Assembly: GCF_008017835.1 (NCBI RefSeq)
Contig: NZ_VRLT01000005.1
Span: 124,001 to 188,000, forward strand
Length of the DNA: 64,000 nt
Source of the DNA: Mesonia sp. HuA40
GTDB taxonomy: Bacteria > Bacteroidota > Bacteroidia > Flavobacteriales > Flavobacteriaceae
Reading direction: 5' to 3'
The position numbers were made by a program, and so were the translations under genes. How positions within the stretch are numbered: the first letter of the stretch is position 1; the number at the start of each line of letters is the position of its first letter. Shown one piece after another: positions 39,190 through 62,157 of this stretch. Below the pieces are notes generated by a model that saw only the letters and a list, made by a program, of their open reading frames with translations, made no database searches and had not been told where the DNA came from.

Positions 39190-42144
39190 ATGAAAACAAA
39201 GTTTAGTGGAATTTTGACGCTATTTCTAGCGTTTATGGTGCAACTATCGTTTGCCCAACAAAAATCAGTTTCCGGAACGGTTACCGACGATACCGGTATG
39301 CCGTTGCCAGGAGTTAACATTATTATTAAAGGAACGTCTTCTGGTACGCAATCAGATTTTGATGGTAATTACAGCTTAAATGCTACCCAAGGAGATGTTT
39401 TAGAATTTACTTACATTGGTTTCCAAACTCAACAAGTTACTGTTGGTGCGGCAAATACTTACAATGTATCTATGAAAGCAGGTAACGAGTTAGACGAGAT
39501 CGTTGTGACTGGTTACTCAAGCATAGACAAAACAAAGTATGCGGGTTCTATTTCAACCGTTAAGGCTGAGGCATTAGAGTCTGTGCCAATTCCTTCTTTT
39601 GACCAAGTATTACAAGGTCAAGCAGCAGGTCTTCAGGTTTCTGCAGGTTCTGGTCAACCAGGTTCATCTGCACGTGTTAGAATTCGTGGTAACGGATCTA
39701 TTAATGGAAACAACAACCCATTATACATCGTAGACGGTATTCAAATTTCGGCTGGTGATTTTTCTGCCTTAAACTCAAACGATTTTGACCGAGTAGATGT
39801 ATTAAAAGATGCAAGTGCAACCGCTCTTTACGGATCTCGTGGAGCAAACGGTGTAATTGTAGTAACTACTAAGAAAGGTTCTTTCTCTCAAGCTACTACT
39901 TTCAACTACAAATCGTCAATTGGTTTTACTGAAATTAGCGAACCTCGCTTTGAAATGATGAACTCTAGCCAGTTATTAAATTTCCAAAGGACAATCAATC
40001 GTGGAGTTGGGGCTGGTTTAACCGATGCTGAAATTGCAGAGTTAGCTCAGGTAAATACTAATTGGAGCGATGTGTTCTTTAGAACTGGTACCGTAAATAC
40101 TCAAGAATTAAGTATGAATGGTGGTAATGAAAACACCCGTTTTTTTAGCAGTGTACAGTATTTAGATCAAGAGGGTTTAATTAAACGTTCTGGATTACAG
40201 CGTTTTACTTTACGTAACAACTTAGAGCACAGACCAAATGAAAAAACTCAAATTGGTTTAAACACCCAGTTAGCGTTTACGAAACAATCTAGAATTGATT
40301 CGGAAAATTCTGTTACCTTACAAAACCCTTTTGCTGCCGCTTATTTAGGATCACCTTACCACCCAGTATATGACGAAAACGGAGATTTCGCAACCGGTGG
40401 AGGACGTGTAGGTCCCAATGCATTAGAGCACTTATTAAGAAGTGATAACGATCGTTTAAGAACTAAGATTGTAGCTTCTGGTTTTGCCAAAAGAGAGATT
40501 TTTGATAATGTAACCGCTGGAATCAACTTAGGGGTAGATTATGAGCAGACTAACGTTGTTCGATTTACAGACCCTAACACAGAATACGGTCGTACTACTA
40601 CTCCTGGAAATGCAGGACGTTATAACGAAGCTAACTCTTACGAAGCCAATTTCACTTCTACTACGAACATTGGTTATGCTAACACTTTTAATGAAAAGCA
40701 CGACTTCAGTATCGACGGTTATATAGAGTACTACAAGAATCATTATAGATCTAGTAGCTTTACCGGTTACGGAATCAACGAATTATTAATTGGTTACCCA
40801 GCTGGTATTACTGCTGGAACTCCAGATAACGAGCTTATTCCTACTGTAGGTGGTACGGATTTTGAAGAAGGCTTATTTTCTTATTTCGCAATCGCTGATT
40901 ACGGTTACGACGATAGATTTGGTATCGGTGGATCGATCAGACGTGATGCTTCAAGTTTCTTTGCCGAATCTAACAAATGGGCAACTTTCTGGTCTGTAGC
41001 AGGTCGTTGGAACATTAGTGAAGAGGCCTTTATGCAAGATGTAAGCTTTGTTAACAACTTAAAATTCAAAGCTAGTTATGGTACTGCGGGAAATAAAGAT
41101 GCAATTGGTGCATTTCGTTATGCTACTGGATACGGACAAGTATCTTATGCAGGTAATCCTGGATTTGCCCCTACTAACATCGGAAACCCAGATTTAAAAT
41201 GGGAAATATCTAACCAATTGAATACTGGTTTTGATTTCGATTTATTCGATTACAGATTATCAGGAAGCGTTGAGTACTACAACAACAAAACTACCGAATT
41301 ATTTATTCGAGAAAATTTAAGTGCTACATCTGGAACTACTTTCATTGATAGCAACTCTGGAGAAATGAGAAATTCAGGGATTGATTTATCATTAAACTAC
41401 AACCTTTTAAGAGGTGAAGGGCGTGATGAAGTAAACATTAATTTAAATTTCAACGGAAACTATAACAAAAATGAAATTTTAGATTTAGGACAAGTTAGCG
41501 AATTCGAATTAGGTACATCTATTATCCGGGAAGGTTTGCCATTAGGGACTCACTATTTTGTAGGTTGGGCTGGAGTAAACCCAGCAAACGGACAACCGTT
41601 GTATACCGACAAAGACGGTAATGTAACCAACGTATACTCTGAGGATAACTCTAGAGCAGATTTTGGAAGCTTTAACCCTGAGTATACAGGTGGTTTTGGT
41701 GGAGATATTTCTTACAAAGGTTTCACCTTATCTACATTGTTCACTTTCCAGGCAGAATACTACCGTTTCAACAACCAAACTTTCTTCCAAGAAAATCCTA
41801 ACTTTGCACAGTATAACTTGAGCACTAAAATGTTAGATATGTGGAAACAACCTGGTGATGTAACTGAAGTACAGAGCTACCTTTACAACAGAGAGTCTAC
41901 CTCTAAAGATATCGAAGATGCATCTTTCTTAAGATGGAGAAACGTAACTTTATCTTACAACTTCTCTGATGACGTAGTAGATGCTTTAAAATATTTCAAA
42001 GGAATCCGCGTTTATGGTATGGCACAAAACTTAGCCACTTGGACCAAGTTTACAGGCTTTGATCCTGAAGATGATGACAATATCGCACAGTACGAATACC
42101 CTACTCCAACAACCATCACTTTTGGTGTAGACTTAAAATTTTAA
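39190..42144 (+). CDS. SusC/RagA-family TonB-linked outer-membrane transporter
   Basis: A 984-residue SusC-type barrel. The order is signal peptide (1-22), carboxypeptidase-regulatory-like domain (about 25-100, VSGTVTDDTGMPLPGVNIII), then a plug with the ELDEIVVTGYSS TonB-box-like region near residue 100 and VRIRGNGSINGNNNPLYIVD, DVLKDASATALYGSRGANGV at about 165-225. A long barrel follows and ends FGVDLKF. It pairs with the next gene's SusD lipoprotein to import a bulky ligand. Neighbouring genes contain a protease but no glycoside hydrolase, so peptides (as in RagAB) are a better guess than glycans. By eye its codons (AAC, TTC, TAC, GGT) look more biased than the neighbours', consistent with high expression. 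Confidence 0.95.
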   Translation: MKTKFSGILTLFLAFMVQLSFAQQKSVSGTVTDDTGMPLPGVNIIIKGTSSGTQSDFDGNYSLNATQGDVLEFTYIGFQTQQVTVGAANTYNVSMKAGNELDEIVVTGYSSIDKTKYAGSISTVKAEALESVPIPSFDQVLQGQAAGLQVSAGSGQPGSSARVRIRGNGSINGNNNPLYIVDGIQISAGDFSALNSNDFDRVDVLKDASATALYGSRGANGVIVVTTKKGSFSQATTFNYKSSIGFTEISEPRFEMMNSSQLLNFQRTINRGVGAGLTDAEIAELAQVNTNWSDVFFRTGTVNTQELSMNGGNENTRFFSSVQYLDQEGLIKRSGLQRFTLRNNLEHRPNEKTQIGLNTQLAFTKQSRIDSENSVTLQNPFAAAYLGSPYHPVYDENGDFATGGGRVGPNALEHLLRSDNDRLRTKIVASGFAKREIFDNVTAGINLGVDYEQTNVVRFTDPNTEYGRTTTPGNAGRYNEANSYEANFTSTTNIGYANTFNEKHDFSIDGYIEYYKNHYRSSSFTGYGINELLIGYPAGITAGTPDNELIPTVGGTDFEEGLFSYFAIADYGYDDRFGIGGSIRRDASSFFAESNKWATFWSVAGRWNISEEAFMQDVSFVNNLKFKASYGTAGNKDAIGAFRYATGYGQVSYAGNPGFAPTNIGNPDLKWEISNQLNTGFDFDLFDYRLSGSVEYYNNKTTELFIRENLSATSGTTFIDSNSGEMRNSGIDLSLNYNLLRGEGRDEVNINLNFNGNYNKNEILDLGQVSEFELGTSIIREGLPLGTHYFVGWAGVNPANGQPLYTDKDGNVTNVYSEDNSRADFGSFNPEYTGGFGGDISYKGFTLSTLFTFQAEYYRFNNQTFFQENPNFAQYNLSTKMLDMWKQPGDVTEVQSYLYNRESTSKDIEDASFLRWRNVTLSYNFSDDVVDALKYFKGIRVYGMAQNLATWTKFTGFDPEDDDNIAQYEYPTPTTITFGVDLKF

Positions 42145-55046: not shown

Positions 55047-58000
55047 ATGAATAAAAGATACATTTTAGGGTTATTATTGGTGCTTACTAGCCAACTTCAG
55101 TTTGCTCAAAAAAGCTTCGAAAAACGTTGGTCGACGGTTGAGCAATTAGAGCAAGAAGGAAGATTGAGTAGTGCTCTTGAAAAAGCAGAGTTAATTTTAA
55201 AAAAAGCAGATAAAAGAGAAAATACTTCTCAATTTATAAAAGCTTTTCTATATGTTTCTAAATACAAGCTCCTTTTAAAAGAAGAAAGTCATTTTGAAGT
55301 TTATCAAGACTTCTTAACTGAAATAGAAAAACAACCAGCCCCTACTAAGCAAATCCTATATTCCTTTCTAGCCGAAAATTTAAATGAATTCTATCGAGCG
55401 AATAGATGGGCTATCGCCAGAAGAACACCGGTTCAAAATCCATCCAATGATTATAGGTTGTGGGATGCTAAACATTTTAAATATCAAATTGATTTTTACT
55501 ACAACAAATCGCTTACTAAAAAAGAATTATTGCTAGCTACAAATTTAAACGCACTCGAGCCAGCGCTACATTACGGTATTAATTATAATCGTTTTAGAAG
55601 TACATTATTAGATTTACTAACCAATCGTTATTTAAATTACTTAAAGCAACAGTCTCCAACCAAAACTGAAATTGACATCGACATAATCGAGTCAAATAAT
55701 CTTTATGCTCTACCAGGAGAATTTTCTCAATTACAGTTACCCAAGGACACCGCCAATGGCAGCTTTATTAAAGGATTAGAAGTGTACCAGCATTTAACAC
55801 GACAGCATCAGAAAAACAAAAATAAAAGTTCTTTACTAGTAACTACCTTAGAACGTTTAAGCTTTATAAAGGACCAAGATCACCGAAAAGATCGAAATAC
55901 GCTTTATAAAAACGCACTTCTAATTCTTAAAAATGAGGTGAAATCCGATAAGGAGCTCGCTTGGATTCATTACTACCTAGCTCGATTTTATTTAGATGAG
56001 GCCGAAAAAAATAGTCACCCCGATTATTTAAATAAAAGTCTAACCCATCTTAAAAAAGTTAAAGAAATCGCCCCAGATAGTTATCCTGCTGTAGAATCTT
56101 CGCATCTCGAGTATGTTATTTTAGACAAAAAATACCGTGTTACCATCCACAAAAAGCCATTAGCCAATAAAAAGTTTAGAGCTCTTGTACATTATAAAAA
56201 TATAGATAGCTTGTACGTACATATTTATAAGTCTAAGCTAAACCACTCTAAATACCCGAGCACTAAGCAAGACTCTGTGATTAAAGCCAATTACACGCGT
56301 GCTAAAAGGCTTAGTTTGCAATCTTTTTCTCTGCCAAAAAAAATAGATTATTATACCTACTCAACAGAAATTCTGCTAGAGGCCTTACCTGCAGGGGATT
56401 ATTTAGCGATTTTCAGTAAAAAAGAAAACTTGAATTTTGAAAGTGAGGAATTTCTATACCATAATTTTCAAGTAACTGATTTAAGCCTTACCAGTTTTGA
56501 TTTGAGCCCTAATCAACAAGTCTATATTGCTAGTAGAACCTCAAGTAAACCTATTAAAAATGCAAAAATTCACGCTAAAAATAGACCAAACGCATACTAC
56601 AGAACCAATCAAAAAGGGCTAGCCACTATACCAGCACCAGCTATAAATAAAACCGAGAGACTCCCCATAACTATTACAAAAGATGGCGACACGTTGCACA
56701 CTGATCTTATTTTTTTTAAACAAAATTTGGGTGAGGATAGCCAAAATGAATTCCTATTAAAAGGAAGCTTATTTACAGATCGCAGCATCTACAGGCCCGG
56801 GCAAGAGGTACATTTTAAAGCAATTTTGACCGTACAAGGAAAAAAATTACGCAAAACAGTTGCTAATCAAAATATCACCATCTATATGCGTAATGCAAAT
56901 CGTCAGATAATTGATAGTTTGCAAATTACCACCAATTCCTATGGCTCTGGACATGGAAAGTTTAAACTGCCAGAAAATGACCTTACGGGAAGTTATAACT
57001 TATTTTTAAAAGAAGAGTTAGCCTCAGGTAGCACCTATGCCAGTGCAGATTGGAGTAGAACTTATTGTTATTTCAATGTTGAAGAATACAAAAGACCCCG
57101 CTTTGAAGTTTTCTTTGACAAAATAAAGACAACAAAGGTTATAAATGATTCTATTTCGTTAAGCGGAAAAGCCAAAGCATATTTCGGCGGAAGCCTAACA
57201 CAAGCTAAGGTGCCTTACACAATAGATCGTGAAATATTTAATTCTTATCGATATGGTTTACCCTATCATGAGAGGAAGAAAAAACGATTATACAAGGGGG
57301 CAACAGTAACCGATGCTAATGGGAATTTTAAAATTAAATTTAAAGCCCTGGCTCCCAATCATATTAAATCTGATTTAAAACCCATTTACACCTATACTAT
57401 AAATGCGGTTGTAACCGATGTAAATGGTGAAACACAAAGTGCATTTCAACAAATACGTTTAGGATATCACGCGGCAGATATTTATTTTGATTTACCCAAT
57501 AATTACTCTAATGTTGTCAATTTAAATAAAAATGCAGCCATACATGTAAAAGCTAACGATTTAAATGGTTTACCAACCAAAGTAGATGGTCATCTCTATT
57601 TATACCAATATAAAACACCAAACCGTTATTTGTTAAAAAGGGATATTCCTTTACCAGAAATACAACAAATACCTTACAATGAGTTTATTAAAAATTTTCC
57701 GCATACGGCATACGACAGTTTAGATTTAGCCGAAAAATGGCCAAAAACTGAAATTTTAAAAATTCCTGTCAAAATAAACCAAACACAAAGCATAAACCTA
57801 GCAGCTTACCAAGAGCAGCTTAAAAGCGGACAGTATCTTTTATCTTACAAAGGCCAAGATATCCGTAAATTTCCCGTTGAAGTAAACCGACGAATTACCC
57901 TGGTCAACCCCAATCGGCCAAATTTAGATCTTCATCAAAACACCATAGATTTTGATTACCACCTAGACCAAGAAAAAAAACAAATAAGGCTTGATTTTAA

Positions 58001-61000
58001 AACCCCTTTTAAAAATTTACACTTATTAACCAATTTAACTTTCGATGATAGTCAACTGCAACAAGAGGTTATGCATTTTAATGAAAATGAAAAGAGTATC
58101 ATTCTTTCGATTCCTAAAAATGCTAAATACCTACACTTAGCGTATTTTTACAACTACTTGGGACGTTACGGAAATAAGCGCCATAAAATTGAACTTCTAC
58201 CGCCAACTAAAAACAAATCAAAGCTAAAATTTGAAGTTTTACATTTTCGTGATAAGCTTGAACCCGGTCAAGCCGAACAATGGCAACTTAAAATTTTAAA
58301 TCAAGACGGAAGCCCAGCTGAAGCGGAAGTACTCGCGAGTATGTATGACGCTTCATTAGATCAATTTAAACCTCATCGCTGGAGTAATGTATTGTACCAT
58401 AATTATTTTAAACGTAAAAAAAATGGACTTCCCAACAGTATCAATCATTTAGGACATTATAACCAAGTTTACACTTCAAGGGCTACTCAACATTTGAATA
58501 GCAATGGGTATAATTTTTTCTCACCGAATTATGCTAATTTTAATTATTTTGGTTATCATTTTATATACACCAGCCTAACCAATAAAACCTATTTAAAAGG
58601 GCTAGCTGTAAATAAATACCAAGCCAAAAACACACCCCAAGGCTATATTGCAGGTAAAATCACCGACCGTTTAGGCAAAGCCTTACCGGGTGTACAGGTT
58701 TTTAATCAAACAAAAAAACAAGCAACTTTAAGCAATTTTGACGGTTACTTCATTTTAAAAGGAGAGCCTAGCGACTTATTGTTTGTTAGATATATAGGAC
58801 ATAGTAAAGCACAAATTATAGCTAAAAAATACAACAACCTTACATTAGAGAATGGGTTTGTTCACAACAATGATAAAATCTTAAGCCATTATAGCGTTGC
58901 TGAATACAGCTTAGAAGAAGTAAGTTCTGCCATTTTATCTGATAATCATCCGCGGTTTAAAGATCTACTTCAGAATAAAGCCCTAGGTCTAATGCTGGTA
59001 GGAGGAGGTTCTGGGCAAGTGGGTGCTGCTACAAGCGTTCGTATACGTGGTAATGGCAGCACTTTAGATAAGGTACCGCTGTATGTAATAAACGGCGAAA
59101 TAGTTGACCCTAGCAAGTTTAAAGACATACCAACAGACCAAATTATCGATATGCAAATGCTTACGGGAACTAGTGCTAAGGCTCTATACGGTGCTCGAGC
59201 CGTCAATGGCGTTGTGCTTATCACAACCAATCAAGAACCAAAAGATCAACTGCAACAGATAGAGGCGCGCACTAACTTGAGTGAAACCGCGTTTTTCTTG
59301 CCTCAACTAAAAACCAACAAAAAAGGAGAAATCATCTTTAATTTTAAAAGTCCAGAGGCATTAACAAAATGGCATTTTCAAGCTTTTGCACACGATAAAC
59401 GGCTAAATCAAGATAAATTAGACCTTTATGTCAATACCCAGAAAAAACTTAACCTTATTCCTAATTTCCCTCGATTTTTTAGAAGTAAAGATAGTTTAAG
59501 TATCTCGGCAAAAATCAGTAATCTCTCGAATGAAGCAATAGAAGGAATCATTCAACTGTCTTTCACCAATAAAGATGAAAGCCTCGTAGATTTATTTACA
59601 AGTTCACAACAAACTAAAAACTTCAGTCTAAACGCAAAAAATAATACTCAGGTAACCTGGAAAATAGCCATTCCGGAAGGTCTTTCGGCAGTCAAGTACC
59701 GTATTGTTGCAAAAGCCGATAATCTAGGCGATGGTGAAGAAGGGCTTATACCGGTGTTAACCAATCGTGTTTTAACCACCGAAACACTACCCATTTGGGT
59801 TAATCCGAATGAGCAGAAAGAGTATAGCTTTAATAGTCTAAAAAATAATAATTCACCAACAAAAGAAAATCACCAGTTGGTTTTTGAGTACACCTCAAAT
59901 CCGGCTTGGACCAGTTTATTGGCGCTACCTTATTTAGTAGAATATCCGCACGAATGTTCAGAACAAGTATTTGCAAAATTTTATGCGAGTCATCTTACAA
60001 AGTTAATGCAAGAATTAAATCCAGAAATTAAAAAGGTATTGCATCAATGGCAAAAGAATAAAACTACTATTCCCGATTGGCATAAAAATACCAATTTAAA
60101 ACAGATGCTTTGGGAAGAAAGCCCCTGGCTAAAAACAGCAGGAACCCCAGCGGAACAACAAAAAAGAATTGCAGAAGTACTCGACATAGAAAAAACGCAA
60201 CAAAATATTCACCAAGCCTTAAAAAAACTATCTAACCTACAACTTGATAACGGAGGCTTTCCTTGGTTTGGGGGCGGTCGTGCCAACAGGTTCATTTCTC
60301 TGCACATTTATGCTGGGTTAGGCAAACTTCAGAAGTTAGATTCCGCAATAGCTCAATTACCAGAAGTTAAAAAAATAACAGAGCAATTAGCCCGTTATTT
60401 AGATTTTGAATTTCTGCAGCCAAATGACAGTCCAAAAATATACTCGTTCAACCCCACAGCCATTCAATACGCTTATGCGAAAAGTTGTTATGACCTAAAA
60501 GCTACGGCCGATTTTAAACGCTACATAGAAACTATGTTTGAAGCCTATGAAGATAATTGGACGTCTTTGACTATTCACTCACAGCTAACCCTTGCTATTC
60601 TAGCGCAGCGTCATAAAAATACAGATTTGGCAAAACAGATTTTAACCGCTCTGCAAGAAAGTGCTGTAATAAATTCAAAGCACGGAATGTATTGGAAAGA
60701 ACTAAAGAAAAATTATGGCTGGCACAATGAACCCATTACTACACAAGTTAGGGCAATTGAAGCTTTCGCGGAAATTGCAGGAGATAAAAAAACGATTACG
60801 AAACTCAAAACTTGGTTAATACGTCAAAGAAAAAATCAAGCTTGGCACTCTACAAAAGCTACTACAGAAGCTATTTATGCACTACTTATTTACGGAGAGC
60901 AAGCAACACTGCAAAAAGAATCTCCTAAAATAAAAATTGGTGAAGAAAAAATTAGCTTTGACAATTCCAGCGCTGCCGGTTATGTTAAGAAAATATGGCA

Positions 61001-61559
61001 AGGCAATTTTATTAATAAAGAACTCGCAAATATAGCTATTAGGAACAATTCAAAAACCGCACAGTATGGCGCAATGTATTGGCAGTACTTTGAAGAGTCT
61101 GATGCCGTGCAAGCCAGTAACCACGAAAGCCTTAAGATTGAGAAAGAATTGTTAAAGAGAGTAGAAACCCTTGAAGGGAGTGTGTTAAGGCCCATATCGG
61201 TAGATCAACTTCGTGTTGGAGACTTAATTAGGGTTCGTTTAATAATAAAGGCAAAAGAAGATTTTAATTTTATGCATTTAAAAGATAGCCGTGCAGCTGG
61301 TCTAGAACCAGTTGATGTGATATCCAAATACAAATGGCAAGATGGTTTAGGTTATTACCAGAGCACAAAAGATGTAGCAACACACTTCTTCTTTGATAAC
61401 ATACCGGCGGGCACTTATGTATTCGAATACAACCTAAGGGTTGTTAATGCAGGTAATTTTTCAAATGGGCTATCCGAATTGCAAAGTATGTATGCACCAG
61501 AAATTAAAGTACAATCTGAAGGTAAAAGACTTGAATTATTACCACGAACAAAAAATTAA
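55047..61559 (+). CDS. alpha-2-macroglobulin-family protein with inserted carboxypeptidase-like and TonB-plug domains
   Basis: A 2170-residue secreted or periplasmic protein. Signal peptide 1-20; TPR-like helical N-terminus to about 380; MG2-type domain about 571-680 (FTDRSIYRPGQEVHFKAILT). Further macroglobulin domains run to about 1190. A carboxypeptidase-regulatory-like domain sits at about 1197-1280 (GKITDRLGKALPGVQVFN). A SusC-like plug is at about 1299-1394 (VRIRGNGSTLDKVPLYVING, GTSAKALYGARAVNGVVLIT). The A2M central domain starts near 1409. The thioester-type motif PHECSEQ places the Cys at 1637, with a terpenoid-cyclase-like helical domain to about 2000. No outer-membrane barrel follows the plug. 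Bacterial A2Ms trap proteases; the role of the plug is unknown. It is followed by a bidirectional terminator. Confidence 0.85.
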   Translation: MNKRYILGLLLVLTSQLQFAQKSFEKRWSTVEQLEQEGRLSSALEKAELILKKADKRENTSQFIKAFLYVSKYKLLLKEESHFEVYQDFLTEIEKQPAPTKQILYSFLAENLNEFYRANRWAIARRTPVQNPSNDYRLWDAKHFKYQIDFYYNKSLTKKELLLATNLNALEPALHYGINYNRFRSTLLDLLTNRYLNYLKQQSPTKTEIDIDIIESNNLYALPGEFSQLQLPKDTANGSFIKGLEVYQHLTRQHQKNKNKSSLLVTTLERLSFIKDQDHRKDRNTLYKNALLILKNEVKSDKELAWIHYYLARFYLDEAEKNSHPDYLNKSLTHLKKVKEIAPDSYPAVESSHLEYVILDKKYRVTIHKKPLANKKFRALVHYKNIDSLYVHIYKSKLNHSKYPSTKQDSVIKANYTRAKRLSLQSFSLPKKIDYYTYSTEILLEALPAGDYLAIFSKKENLNFESEEFLYHNFQVTDLSLTSFDLSPNQQVYIASRTSSKPIKNAKIHAKNRPNAYYRTNQKGLATIPAPAINKTERLPITITKDGDTLHTDLIFFKQNLGEDSQNEFLLKGSLFTDRSIYRPGQEVHFKAILTVQGKKLRKTVANQNITIYMRNANRQIIDSLQITTNSYGSGHGKFKLPENDLTGSYNLFLKEELASGSTYASADWSRTYCYFNVEEYKRPRFEVFFDKIKTTKVINDSISLSGKAKAYFGGSLTQAKVPYTIDREIFNSYRYGLPYHERKKKRLYKGATVTDANGNFKIKFKALAPNHIKSDLKPIYTYTINAVVTDVNGETQSAFQQIRLGYHAADIYFDLPNNYSNVVNLNKNAAIHVKANDLNGLPTKVDGHLYLYQYKTPNRYLLKRDIPLPEIQQIPYNEFIKNFPHTAYDSLDLAEKWPKTEILKIPVKINQTQSINLAAYQEQLKSGQYLLSYKGQDIRKFPVEVNRRITLVNPNRPNLDLHQNTIDFDYHLDQEKKQIRLDFKTPFKNLHLLTNLTFDDSQLQQEVMHFNENEKSIILSIPKNAKYLHLAYFYNYLGRYGNKRHKIELLPPTKNKSKLKFEVLHFRDKLEPGQAEQWQLKILNQDGSPAEAEVLASMYDASLDQFKPHRWSNVLYHNYFKRKKNGLPNSINHLGHYNQVYTSRATQHLNSNGYNFFSPNYANFNYFGYHFIYTSLTNKTYLKGLAVNKYQAKNTPQGYIAGKITDRLGKALPGVQVFNQTKKQATLSNFDGYFILKGEPSDLLFVRYIGHSKAQIIAKKYNNLTLENGFVHNNDKILSHYSVAEYSLEEVSSAILSDNHPRFKDLLQNKALGLMLVGGGSGQVGAATSVRIRGNGSTLDKVPLYVINGEIVDPSKFKDIPTDQIIDMQMLTGTSAKALYGARAVNGVVLITTNQEPKDQLQQIEARTNLSETAFFLPQLKTNKKGEIIFNFKSPEALTKWHFQAFAHDKRLNQDKLDLYVNTQKKLNLIPNFPRFFRSKDSLSISAKISNLSNEAIEGIIQLSFTNKDESLVDLFTSSQQTKNFSLNAKNNTQVTWKIAIPEGLSAVKYRIVAKADNLGDGEEGLIPVLTNRVLTTETLPIWVNPNEQKEYSFNSLKNNNSPTKENHQLVFEYTSNPAWTSLLALPYLVEYPHECSEQVFAKFYASHLTKLMQELNPEIKKVLHQWQKNKTTIPDWHKNTNLKQMLWEESPWLKTAGTPAEQQKRIAEVLDIEKTQQNIHQALKKLSNLQLDNGGFPWFGGGRANRFISLHIYAGLGKLQKLDSAIAQLPEVKKITEQLARYLDFEFLQPNDSPKIYSFNPTAIQYAYAKSCYDLKATADFKRYIETMFEAYEDNWTSLTIHSQLTLAILAQRHKNTDLAKQILTALQESAVINSKHGMYWKELKKNYGWHNEPITTQVRAIEAFAEIAGDKKTITKLKTWLIRQRKNQAWHSTKATTEAIYALLIYGEQATLQKESPKIKIGEEKISFDNSSAAGYVKKIWQGNFINKELANIAIRNNSKTAQYGAMYWQYFEESDAVQASNHESLKIEKELLKRVETLEGSVLRPISVDQLRVGDLIRVRLIIKAKEDFNFMHLKDSRAAGLEPVDVISKYKWQDGLGYYQSTKDVATHFFFDNIPAGTYVFEYNLRVVNAGNFSNGLSELQSMYAPEIKVQSEGKRLELLPRTKN

Positions 61560-61632: not shown

Positions 61633-62157
61633 TTATTTTGGTGGAAATTCCTTTACGCCTTTACTGATTAGCCGATTAAAAAATACTTGTTTTTCTTTTG
61701 GATTCATCTGGCGTTTATATTGATCTTCTACAACAGCTTGCCAAAATAATTCGTTGGTTTGAGCCTCACTAAAATTAAGGCTTAAACTCAATATGGTTTT
61801 CGTCGTACTTATAGGTATTCCACCTGAAACACCACCGCCAACGTGGCCTCCTCCTCCACCAAATCCAATTCCTATTTGAGAGTTGTTACGCTCTTGAAAC
61901 AAATCGGTTTCTAAAAGAATTTTAAAATCGGGATTACTGCTTTTTGCGTAACCTTGTTGGGCTAAGACGTCTTCAACAGCTTTTATCAGGCGTTCTTGGT
62001 CTAGCTCGTTTAAATGACCAGCAGCAATATTGTGTTGAGGATAAAATTGATAAGTGCGGTATTTTTGGAAATTTACTTTAGCATCATAATCTACATAAAC
62101 CTTTGGACCGCAACTCATCAAAAACAAAAAAAAAACCAAACCTAAAATACGTGTCAT
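61633..62157 (-). CDS. DUF4136 lipoprotein
   Basis: A 174-residue lipoprotein (signal ending FLFLMSC, Cys16). The DUF4136 domain shows VYVDYDAKVNFQKYRTYQFY at the start and LNELDQERLIKAVEDVLAQQ then GYAKSSNPDFKILLETDLFQ. A glycine-rich loop (GIGFGGGGGHVGGGVSGGIP) lies in the middle, and LSLNFSEAQTNELFWQAVVE follows. The family is widespread in Gram-negative envelopes with no assigned role. Confidence 0.88.
   Translation of the reverse strand: MTRILGLVFFLFLMSCGPKVYVDYDAKVNFQKYRTYQFYPQHNIAAGHLNELDQERLIKAVEDVLAQQGYAKSSNPDFKILLETDLFQERNNSQIGIGFGGGGGHVGGGVSGGIPISTTKTILSLSLNFSEAQTNELFWQAVVEDQYKRQMNPKEKQVFFNRLISKGVKEFPPK

Follow-up and report, generated by a model that had tools for sequence, protein, structure and literature searches.

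In a stretch of 64,000 nucleotides from the 2.64 Mb genome of Mesonia sp. HuA40 (contig NZ_VRLT01000005.1, positions 124,001 to 188,000; hereafter the window), a gene at positions 55047..61559 encodes an alpha-2-macroglobulin (A2M) family protein which carries, at the position of the bait region, an N-terminal extension (NTE) and a plug domain that derive from a SusC-type TonB receptor. Across its relatives, this bait or anaphylatoxin position is a cassette site at which receptor pieces have been swapped, lost and gained repeatedly, and this receptor-derived bait and its turnover are new. We tentatively read the insert as a decoy bait that would mimic the cell's own receptors within an A2M-type protease trap, a possible interpretation to which we give somewhat less than an even chance.

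An alpha-2-macroglobulin with receptor domains at the bait position

The gene is a single unbroken open reading frame on the forward strand, as are all its features below, from ATG to TAA with 2170 residues, and starts, by inspection, with a signal-peptide-like N-terminus without a cysteine (MNKRYILGLLLVLTSQLQFAQ, 55047..55109). Pfam recognizes an MG2 domain (PF01835, residues 575-663, 56769..57035, 1e-17), an A2M domain (PF00207, residues 1414-1503, 59286..59555, 4.2e-12), which starts inside the conserved TNLSETAFFLP, and a bMG10 domain (residues 2037-2152, 61155..61502, 4.4e-31), which in this order is the layout of type I bacterial A2Ms. The thioester motif CSEQ is located downstream of the insert at residues 1637-1640 (59955..59966), as an earlier note on this DNA had it; a CxEQ motif is present in 94 of 97 proteins examined and was not found in L051, L052 and L053. 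The stretch before the bait position extends from a conserved ASMYDASLD to an anchor, NYFGYHF (residues 1097-1172, 58335..58562). The insert itself (residues 1196-1399, 58632..59243) consists of the NTE, equivalent to CarbopepD_reg_2 (residues 1201-1276, 58647..58874, Pfam 1.3e-9), a decayed Ton box DKILSHYSV (58872..58898), which is predicted to be disordered and aligns with DEVVVTGYG-like stretches of relatives, and the Plug domain with the SusC signature ALYGARAVNGVVLIT (residues 1301-1389, 58947..59213, Pfam 4.1e-6, above the cut-off). These matches bear out the claim of the earlier note that an A2M frame is interrupted by an NTE and a plug in the absence of a barrel, both profiles falling inside the insertion; the place of the insert in the bait region and the turnover at that place had escaped it.

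NCBIfam adds matches to TIGR04056 (SusC, 2e-32) and TIGR04057 (SusC_RagA_signa, 5.6e-9), both under their curated cut-offs and the former covering only profile positions 3-396 of 981. No barrel family was found in the Pfam scan of the protein at E<=1, the A2M domains coming after the plug, and a Ton-box hidden Markov model (HMM) did not detect a Ton box in the window segment at E<=0.01, which leaves its state as NTE plus plug. A profile of 21 relatives, compared with solved structures, matched NTE-plug regions of SusC/RagA proteins (best 2.7e-43, profile positions 1198-1393), other parts of the same profile matching solved A2M and complement proteins. The insert is flanked by domains homologous to ECAM and Sa-A2M in an alignment compared at the first and last residues only, and plug-less relatives have a variable linker at its position. 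As structure models of the protein were weak (pTM 0.39 and 0.41; pLDDT about 64-84 in the second half of the plug and about 50 or less in the first) and no receptor plug was among the 50 matches listed in either VIA structure comparison, the plug assignment rests on sequence. By its domains and CxEQ motif, the window protein belongs with the type I bacterial A2Ms; lacking a barrel and a Ton box, it is no TonB receptor.

That a frameshift or a fault of assembly or annotation has fused an A2M with a SusC is practically negligible as an explanation. Nothing in its favour was found for the window gene; against it stand a full-length orthologue of 93% identity in a second genome, orthologues in other species and a common gene neighbourhood. 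An assembly error is ruled out by the unbroken orthologues. Insert-bearing orthologues share 42-48% identity when they belong to Mesonia and 33-35% when another genus of the family holds them, and the fusions in related genomes which the earlier note had anticipated do occur: other species and genera have plug-bearing orthologues of 2080-2214 residues. Two wrongly joined genes would leave homologues that end before residue 1190, and none was seen; orthologues span the insert, and plug-less relatives of about 1960-2020 residues align on both sides of it and skip it. An A2M is present in 10 of 15 other Mesonia genomes, one copy being broken (G012); the nine unbroken copies all have the plug and eight also the NTE. 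No match was found in 11 of 60 relatives searched, nor one to the A2M core in 149 of 295 genomes of the class. The insert-bearing gene is real and old. In one uncultured Mesonia genome, an orthologue at 91-95% identity (L054 and G012:C6:153294-161176) is broken into pieces by in-frame stops, owing either to decay of the gene or to faulty assembly of that bin.

Receptor pieces at the bait position of relatives

The segment was compared among 98 orthologues, mostly Flavobacteriaceae, namely the window, 20 relatives and 77 named loci, the latter taken from the best 80 of at least 576 relatives after L054 and L105, with no complete segment, and one duplicate had been removed. HMMs for the three pieces, built from 42 SusC proteins (one SusC without a recognized Ton box was left out) and applied at E<=0.01, detected at least one SusC N-terminal piece in 67 of the 98 segments, a proportion that refers to loci close to the window and is not a phylum-wide rate: the NTE in 32, the Ton box in 50 and the plug in 44. 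None of 198 shuffled segments and none of 197 adjacent A2M segments was matched by the same HMMs, one adjacent control segment being too short. Pieces occur as NTE, Ton box and plug together (21 segments), Ton box only (16), plug only (13), NTE and Ton box (7), Ton box and plug (6) or, as in the window, NTE and plug (4 including the window), with none in 31. At E<=0.1, Pfam and NCBIfam find Plug in 36, CarbopepD_reg_2 in 31 and TIGR04056 in 54 segments. Beyond plug and NTE-type families, the Pfam matches (25 of 33 families shown) comprise CooC_C in 21 segments, TTR_TEN1-4 in 10, MetallophosN in 5, Big_1 in 4 and DUF7382 in 2, plus singletons; TTR/Ig-like matches are taken as cross-hits to the NTE, a reading verified only for CooC_C and only on the window segment. 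In a comparison with two full SusCs, from which the A2M fragment L065 was excluded, all 123 matches (from 66 segments) end inside the first 260 residues, and neither this comparison nor the Pfam families shown for the 98 segments included barrel pieces at the bait site. On an A2M core tree of the same 98 proteins, from a quick search and with some long branches, the plug state changes 15 times, and supported (starred) branches force 11 of these changes; the full piece state changes 41 times.

Among 100 segments sampled at class level, the HMMs found the NTE in 5, the Ton box in 5 and the plug in 1, and the databases gave Plug in 2 (Pfam), CarbopepD_reg_2 in 5 and TIGR04056 in 4; of the six SusC-positive segments, the family of the window accounts for three and its order for one more. 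A second plug type was met in families of the class that are distant from the window. The bait of L231 shares 58% identity over 48 residues (2.3e-12) with a frame of 1262 residues in its own genome that carries an NTE and a plug and, judging from the plug and the length, would be a TonB receptor, although no barrel was matched in the 728 residues scanned. L231 and L223 led to the loci from which an HMM of this plug was built, and these two are therefore not independent of it. The HMM matches 11 of the 100 class-level segments (seven below 1e-3, with L216, L203, L171, L233 and L206 besides those two; L161, L218 and L225 at 0.0038-0.0092; L141 is SusC-type) and 28 of the first 98, with 0 matches in each control set at E<=0.01. 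In some of the distant families, the bait site is occupied by pieces of this other plug.

The variety of piecemeal states, together with fragmentary remnants, are what could be expected of neutral capture, in which the bait tolerates almost any sequence and SusC genes overwrite a SusC-like stretch by recombination without benefit; in human A2M, the bait sequence is dispensable according to excerpts of a published study (PMC9352918). We nevertheless consider this explanation unlikely, with the recurrence of TonB-receptor N-termini, the failure to see barrel pieces and the presence of another plug type at the same site in distant families speaking against it.

The combinations also bear on docking, whereby the NTE, Ton box or plug would target the trap to TonB-ExbBD, to a plug-less receptor barrel or, via the NTE, to the POTRA domains of the β-barrel assembly machinery (BAM), and would place protease surveillance where receptors are assembled or energized. 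A Ton box is detected in 27 of the 44 plug-bearing members, and docking to BAM is suggested by the N-domain of its component BamP, as excerpts of the source describe it (PMC12611786). Yet the Ton box is decayed in the window and undetected in 17 of the 44, the NTE is absent in 19 of them and the plug is undetected in 23 of the 50 members with a Ton box. The BamP model NF053692, which matches 25 of the 98 segments at E<=0.1, is not among the matches of the window protein. With the Ton box undetected in 17 of 44 and the plug in 23 of 50, no combination required for the TonB machine is kept throughout, and we consider docking improbable. The earlier note had proposed docking into a barrel, TonB binding or coupling to transport; many plug-bearing members do retain a Ton box, but for the window protein TonB coupling becomes less likely because of its decayed Ton box and those 17 members.

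Origin and exchange of the inserts

Within the window, the complete SusC at 39190..42144 (forward strand), with NTE, Ton box (LDEIVVTGY), plug and barrel, served as a comparison protein. The earlier note had the plug closely mirroring this SusC; the matching strings are there (at residues 1331, 1344 and 1379 against SusC 163, 177 and 212), but the wording was too strong for an identity of 32% over residues 1196-1428. A recent copy from the window's own SusC is ruled out by the 32-34% identity of the insert to resident SusCs.

Other members carry traces of more recent exchange. Between the close Mesonia orthologues L035 and L046, synonymous divergence (dS) is 0.21-0.22 in the large flanks, 0.39 just before the insert and 0.94 in the insert, the NTE is missing in one of the two, and the L046 insert is nearest to other A2Ms and not to a SusC. 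The Winogradskyella pair L075/L077 has unrelated baits despite a flank dS of 0.28 and 0.46. In the Tenacibaculum pair L074/L092, dS of the insert (0.21) lies below that of the flanks (0.52, 0.75), a pattern that transfer would leave. A tree of 43 SusCs and 40 A2M inserts (SusC_L032, which as read contains stops, was left out) does not unite the A2Ms in one clade and requires six changes, three of them forced by starred branches. At 100/100 support, the insert of L039 is nested with two SusCs, one from its own genome and the other from another Mesonia. Among the sequences compared, three inserts are nearest to a SusC of their own genome: L039 (74% over 201 residues; next A2M 50%), L126 (69%, against 49% at most in four other genomes) and L045 (56%, against 51% at most in five other genomes). 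For L037 and L043, no recent SusC donor was found in the genomes searched, their own included. The A2M plug of L126 lacks the long loop after the VDGVP motif which its nearest resident SusC (L353) has.

In L039 the likeness is highest in a tract of 51 codons from the Ton box onward, with nonsynonymous and synonymous differences per site (pN, pS) of 0.01 and 0.34, as opposed to pN 0.28 and 0.17 and pS 0.69 and 0.79 in its flanks; the 51 residues over the Ton box differ from the resident SusC by one, which could also be counted in favour of docking. The tract looks as gene conversion would leave it; no tract as sharp was found in L126 and L045. A single origin followed by vertical descent only is rejected on the nesting of L039, the three forced changes and the nearest SusCs in the own genomes; the rejection rests on these because a single A2M clade gives a borderline result in the approximately unbiased (AU) test (p 0.042 with 40 A2M rows, 0.075 without two long rows).

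Selection on the inserts

Ratios of nonsynonymous to synonymous divergence (dN/dS) of plug-bearing inserts are 0.22 or 0.27, by boundary, for window/L034, 0.12 for L074/L092, 0.16 for L070/L079, 0.11 for L066/L069, 0.27 for L035/L037, 0.29 for L038/L040 and 0.39 for L035/L046; that of L075/L077 could not be measured. The inserts are thus under purifying selection and kept as protein, and values well under 1 in all seven plug-bearing pairs argue against neutral capture. In its favour, in several pairs the ratio is no lower (0.27-0.39) than in baits of three plug-less pairs and of a fourth pair, one member of which holds a plug fragment (0.27-0.33), and in the first set of pairs (L035/L037, L038/L040, L035/L046 and window/L034) inserts are less constrained than the measurable flanks. 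A stronger constraint on plug-bearing baits, as 0.11-0.22 in four pairs would have it, fails, the values becoming 0.27-0.39 with other boundaries and pairs. This failed contrast lowers the odds for a decoy, for a self-updating form of it and for docking and raises those for neutral capture.

A possible decoy bait

The decoy reading takes up what the sequences show, namely the place of the insert, its TonB-receptor origin, its repeated re-supply and reshuffling and the purifying selection on it, and we infer a periplasmic location, cleavage, trapping and a benefit. According to excerpts of a study of SusC receptors, the Ton box, which lies between NTE and plug, is flexible, plugs can come out of their barrels in vitro, and such ejected plugs are considered accessible to proteolysis (PMC7782687). 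A Ton-box linker and a plug out of the barrel would be flexible receptor parts that face the periplasm, and a protease clipping them would cut the NTE-linker-plug copy in the A2M. Cleavage at the bait position would trigger the conformational change of the A2M, expose the CSEQ thioester and trap the protease; a bait copied from resident receptors would stay matched to the proteins in need of protection. A self-updating bait, rewritten from the cell's own TonB-receptor repertoire with gene conversion keeping the match to self, goes one step further and is the more doubtful for it.

Several observations weigh against the decoy reading. The window insert is an old, diverged capture which is no longer a close copy of a present receptor. 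No SusC piece was detected in 31 of the 98 orthologues, nor in 94 of the 100 segments sampled at class level, so the family does without it, and 5 of the 15 other Mesonia genomes were matched only by their SusCs, with no A2M match. Inserts are not clearly more constrained than plug-less baits (0.11-0.39 versus 0.27-0.33). The expulsion of plugs in detergent is, in the excerpts, probably non-physiological according to its authors (PMC7782687). In human A2M, 10-20 extra bait residues are enough to favour the collapsed form according to the excerpted study (PMC9352918), so an insert of about 200 residues would need folded domains which keep its ends close.

Comparison with known systems

Among the open-access papers listed in literature searches, none was found to describe a plug or an NTE in an A2M. 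Type I bacterial A2Ms such as E. coli ECAM (YfhM) and Salmonella Sa-A2M have the same MG2, A2M (PF00207) and bMG10 domains, CxEQ motif and bait before PF00207; the window protein differs by the receptor module of about 200 residues at the bait position. ECAM is anchored in the inner membrane, as excerpts of the source state (PMC4498604), whereas the window protein, by inspection, has no lipobox cysteine. Complement C3, C4 and C5 hold a folded anaphylatoxin domain at the bait position which is cut on activation; the window insert at that position consists of an NTE and a plug of bacterial receptor origin, for which cutting or release would be hypothetical. With SusC/RagA receptors, the insert shares the order of NTE, Ton-box linker and plug and the SusC signature at the plug end, although the window protein lacks the β-barrel and its Ton box is decayed. 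The N-terminal part of BamP, a periplasmic protein of the Bacteroidota BAM complex, resembles an NTE at profile level, but a C-terminal three-helix domain, in excerpts of its description (PMC12611786), stands where plug and A2M follow here.

Neighbouring genes and other barrel-less plugs

Of 89 loci inspected for about 6-10 kb on either side of the A2M gene, 61, 57, 56, 49 and 41 contain homologues of the flanking genes which we take, from their sequences, to be mpl, obg, adk, hpt and purE, respectively, and 47 have a homologue of a TPR-like protein. A protein of 174 residues is encoded directly downstream of the window A2M (61633-62157, reverse strand); its homologues stand beside the A2M in 50 of the 89 loci, which makes it a possible partner.

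Plugs without a barrel are apparently also found in another kind of protein. L305 (736-2991, reverse strand) is a DUF4140/DUF4139 protein with an NTE, a Ton-box-like and a plug-like stretch (E 0.0016, under the Pfam cut-off), the insertion being located inside the DUF4139 domain (PF13598 match 220-744); L300, L303 and L306 are other frames of 749-762 residues like L305, the only one scanned with Pfam. Frames of 250-287 residues in L293 (991-1740), L294 (982-1743) and L296 (853-1713) contain an NTE, a Ton-box-like stretch and a plug and end soon past the plug, without a barrel (L293 and L296 were scanned with Pfam). In L323 (1036-2370, reverse strand, own-genome contig C54), a frame of 444 residues adjoining a FecR-like gene, as read by eye, has a SusC-like start with NTE and partial plug and continues into a dissimilar C-terminal part, as though two genes had been joined by a deletion. 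L311 (955-1953, reverse strand, own-genome contig C22), with 332 residues, a Ton-box-like stretch and a plug, is too short for a barrel and, by its look, a remnant.

Significance

NTE-plug modules outside barrels bear on the roles of the NTE and the plug, and the bait site offers a rapidly swapped cassette within an otherwise conserved gene. Bait regions decide what a macroglobulin traps, and the evolution and targets of bacterial baits are little known; a bait of recognizable origin gives a testable guess at the guarded target, namely TonB receptors. If the bait is indeed self-updating, Bacteroidia would possess a trap sprung by exactly those proteases which attack their receptors, a bacterial immune-like decoy.

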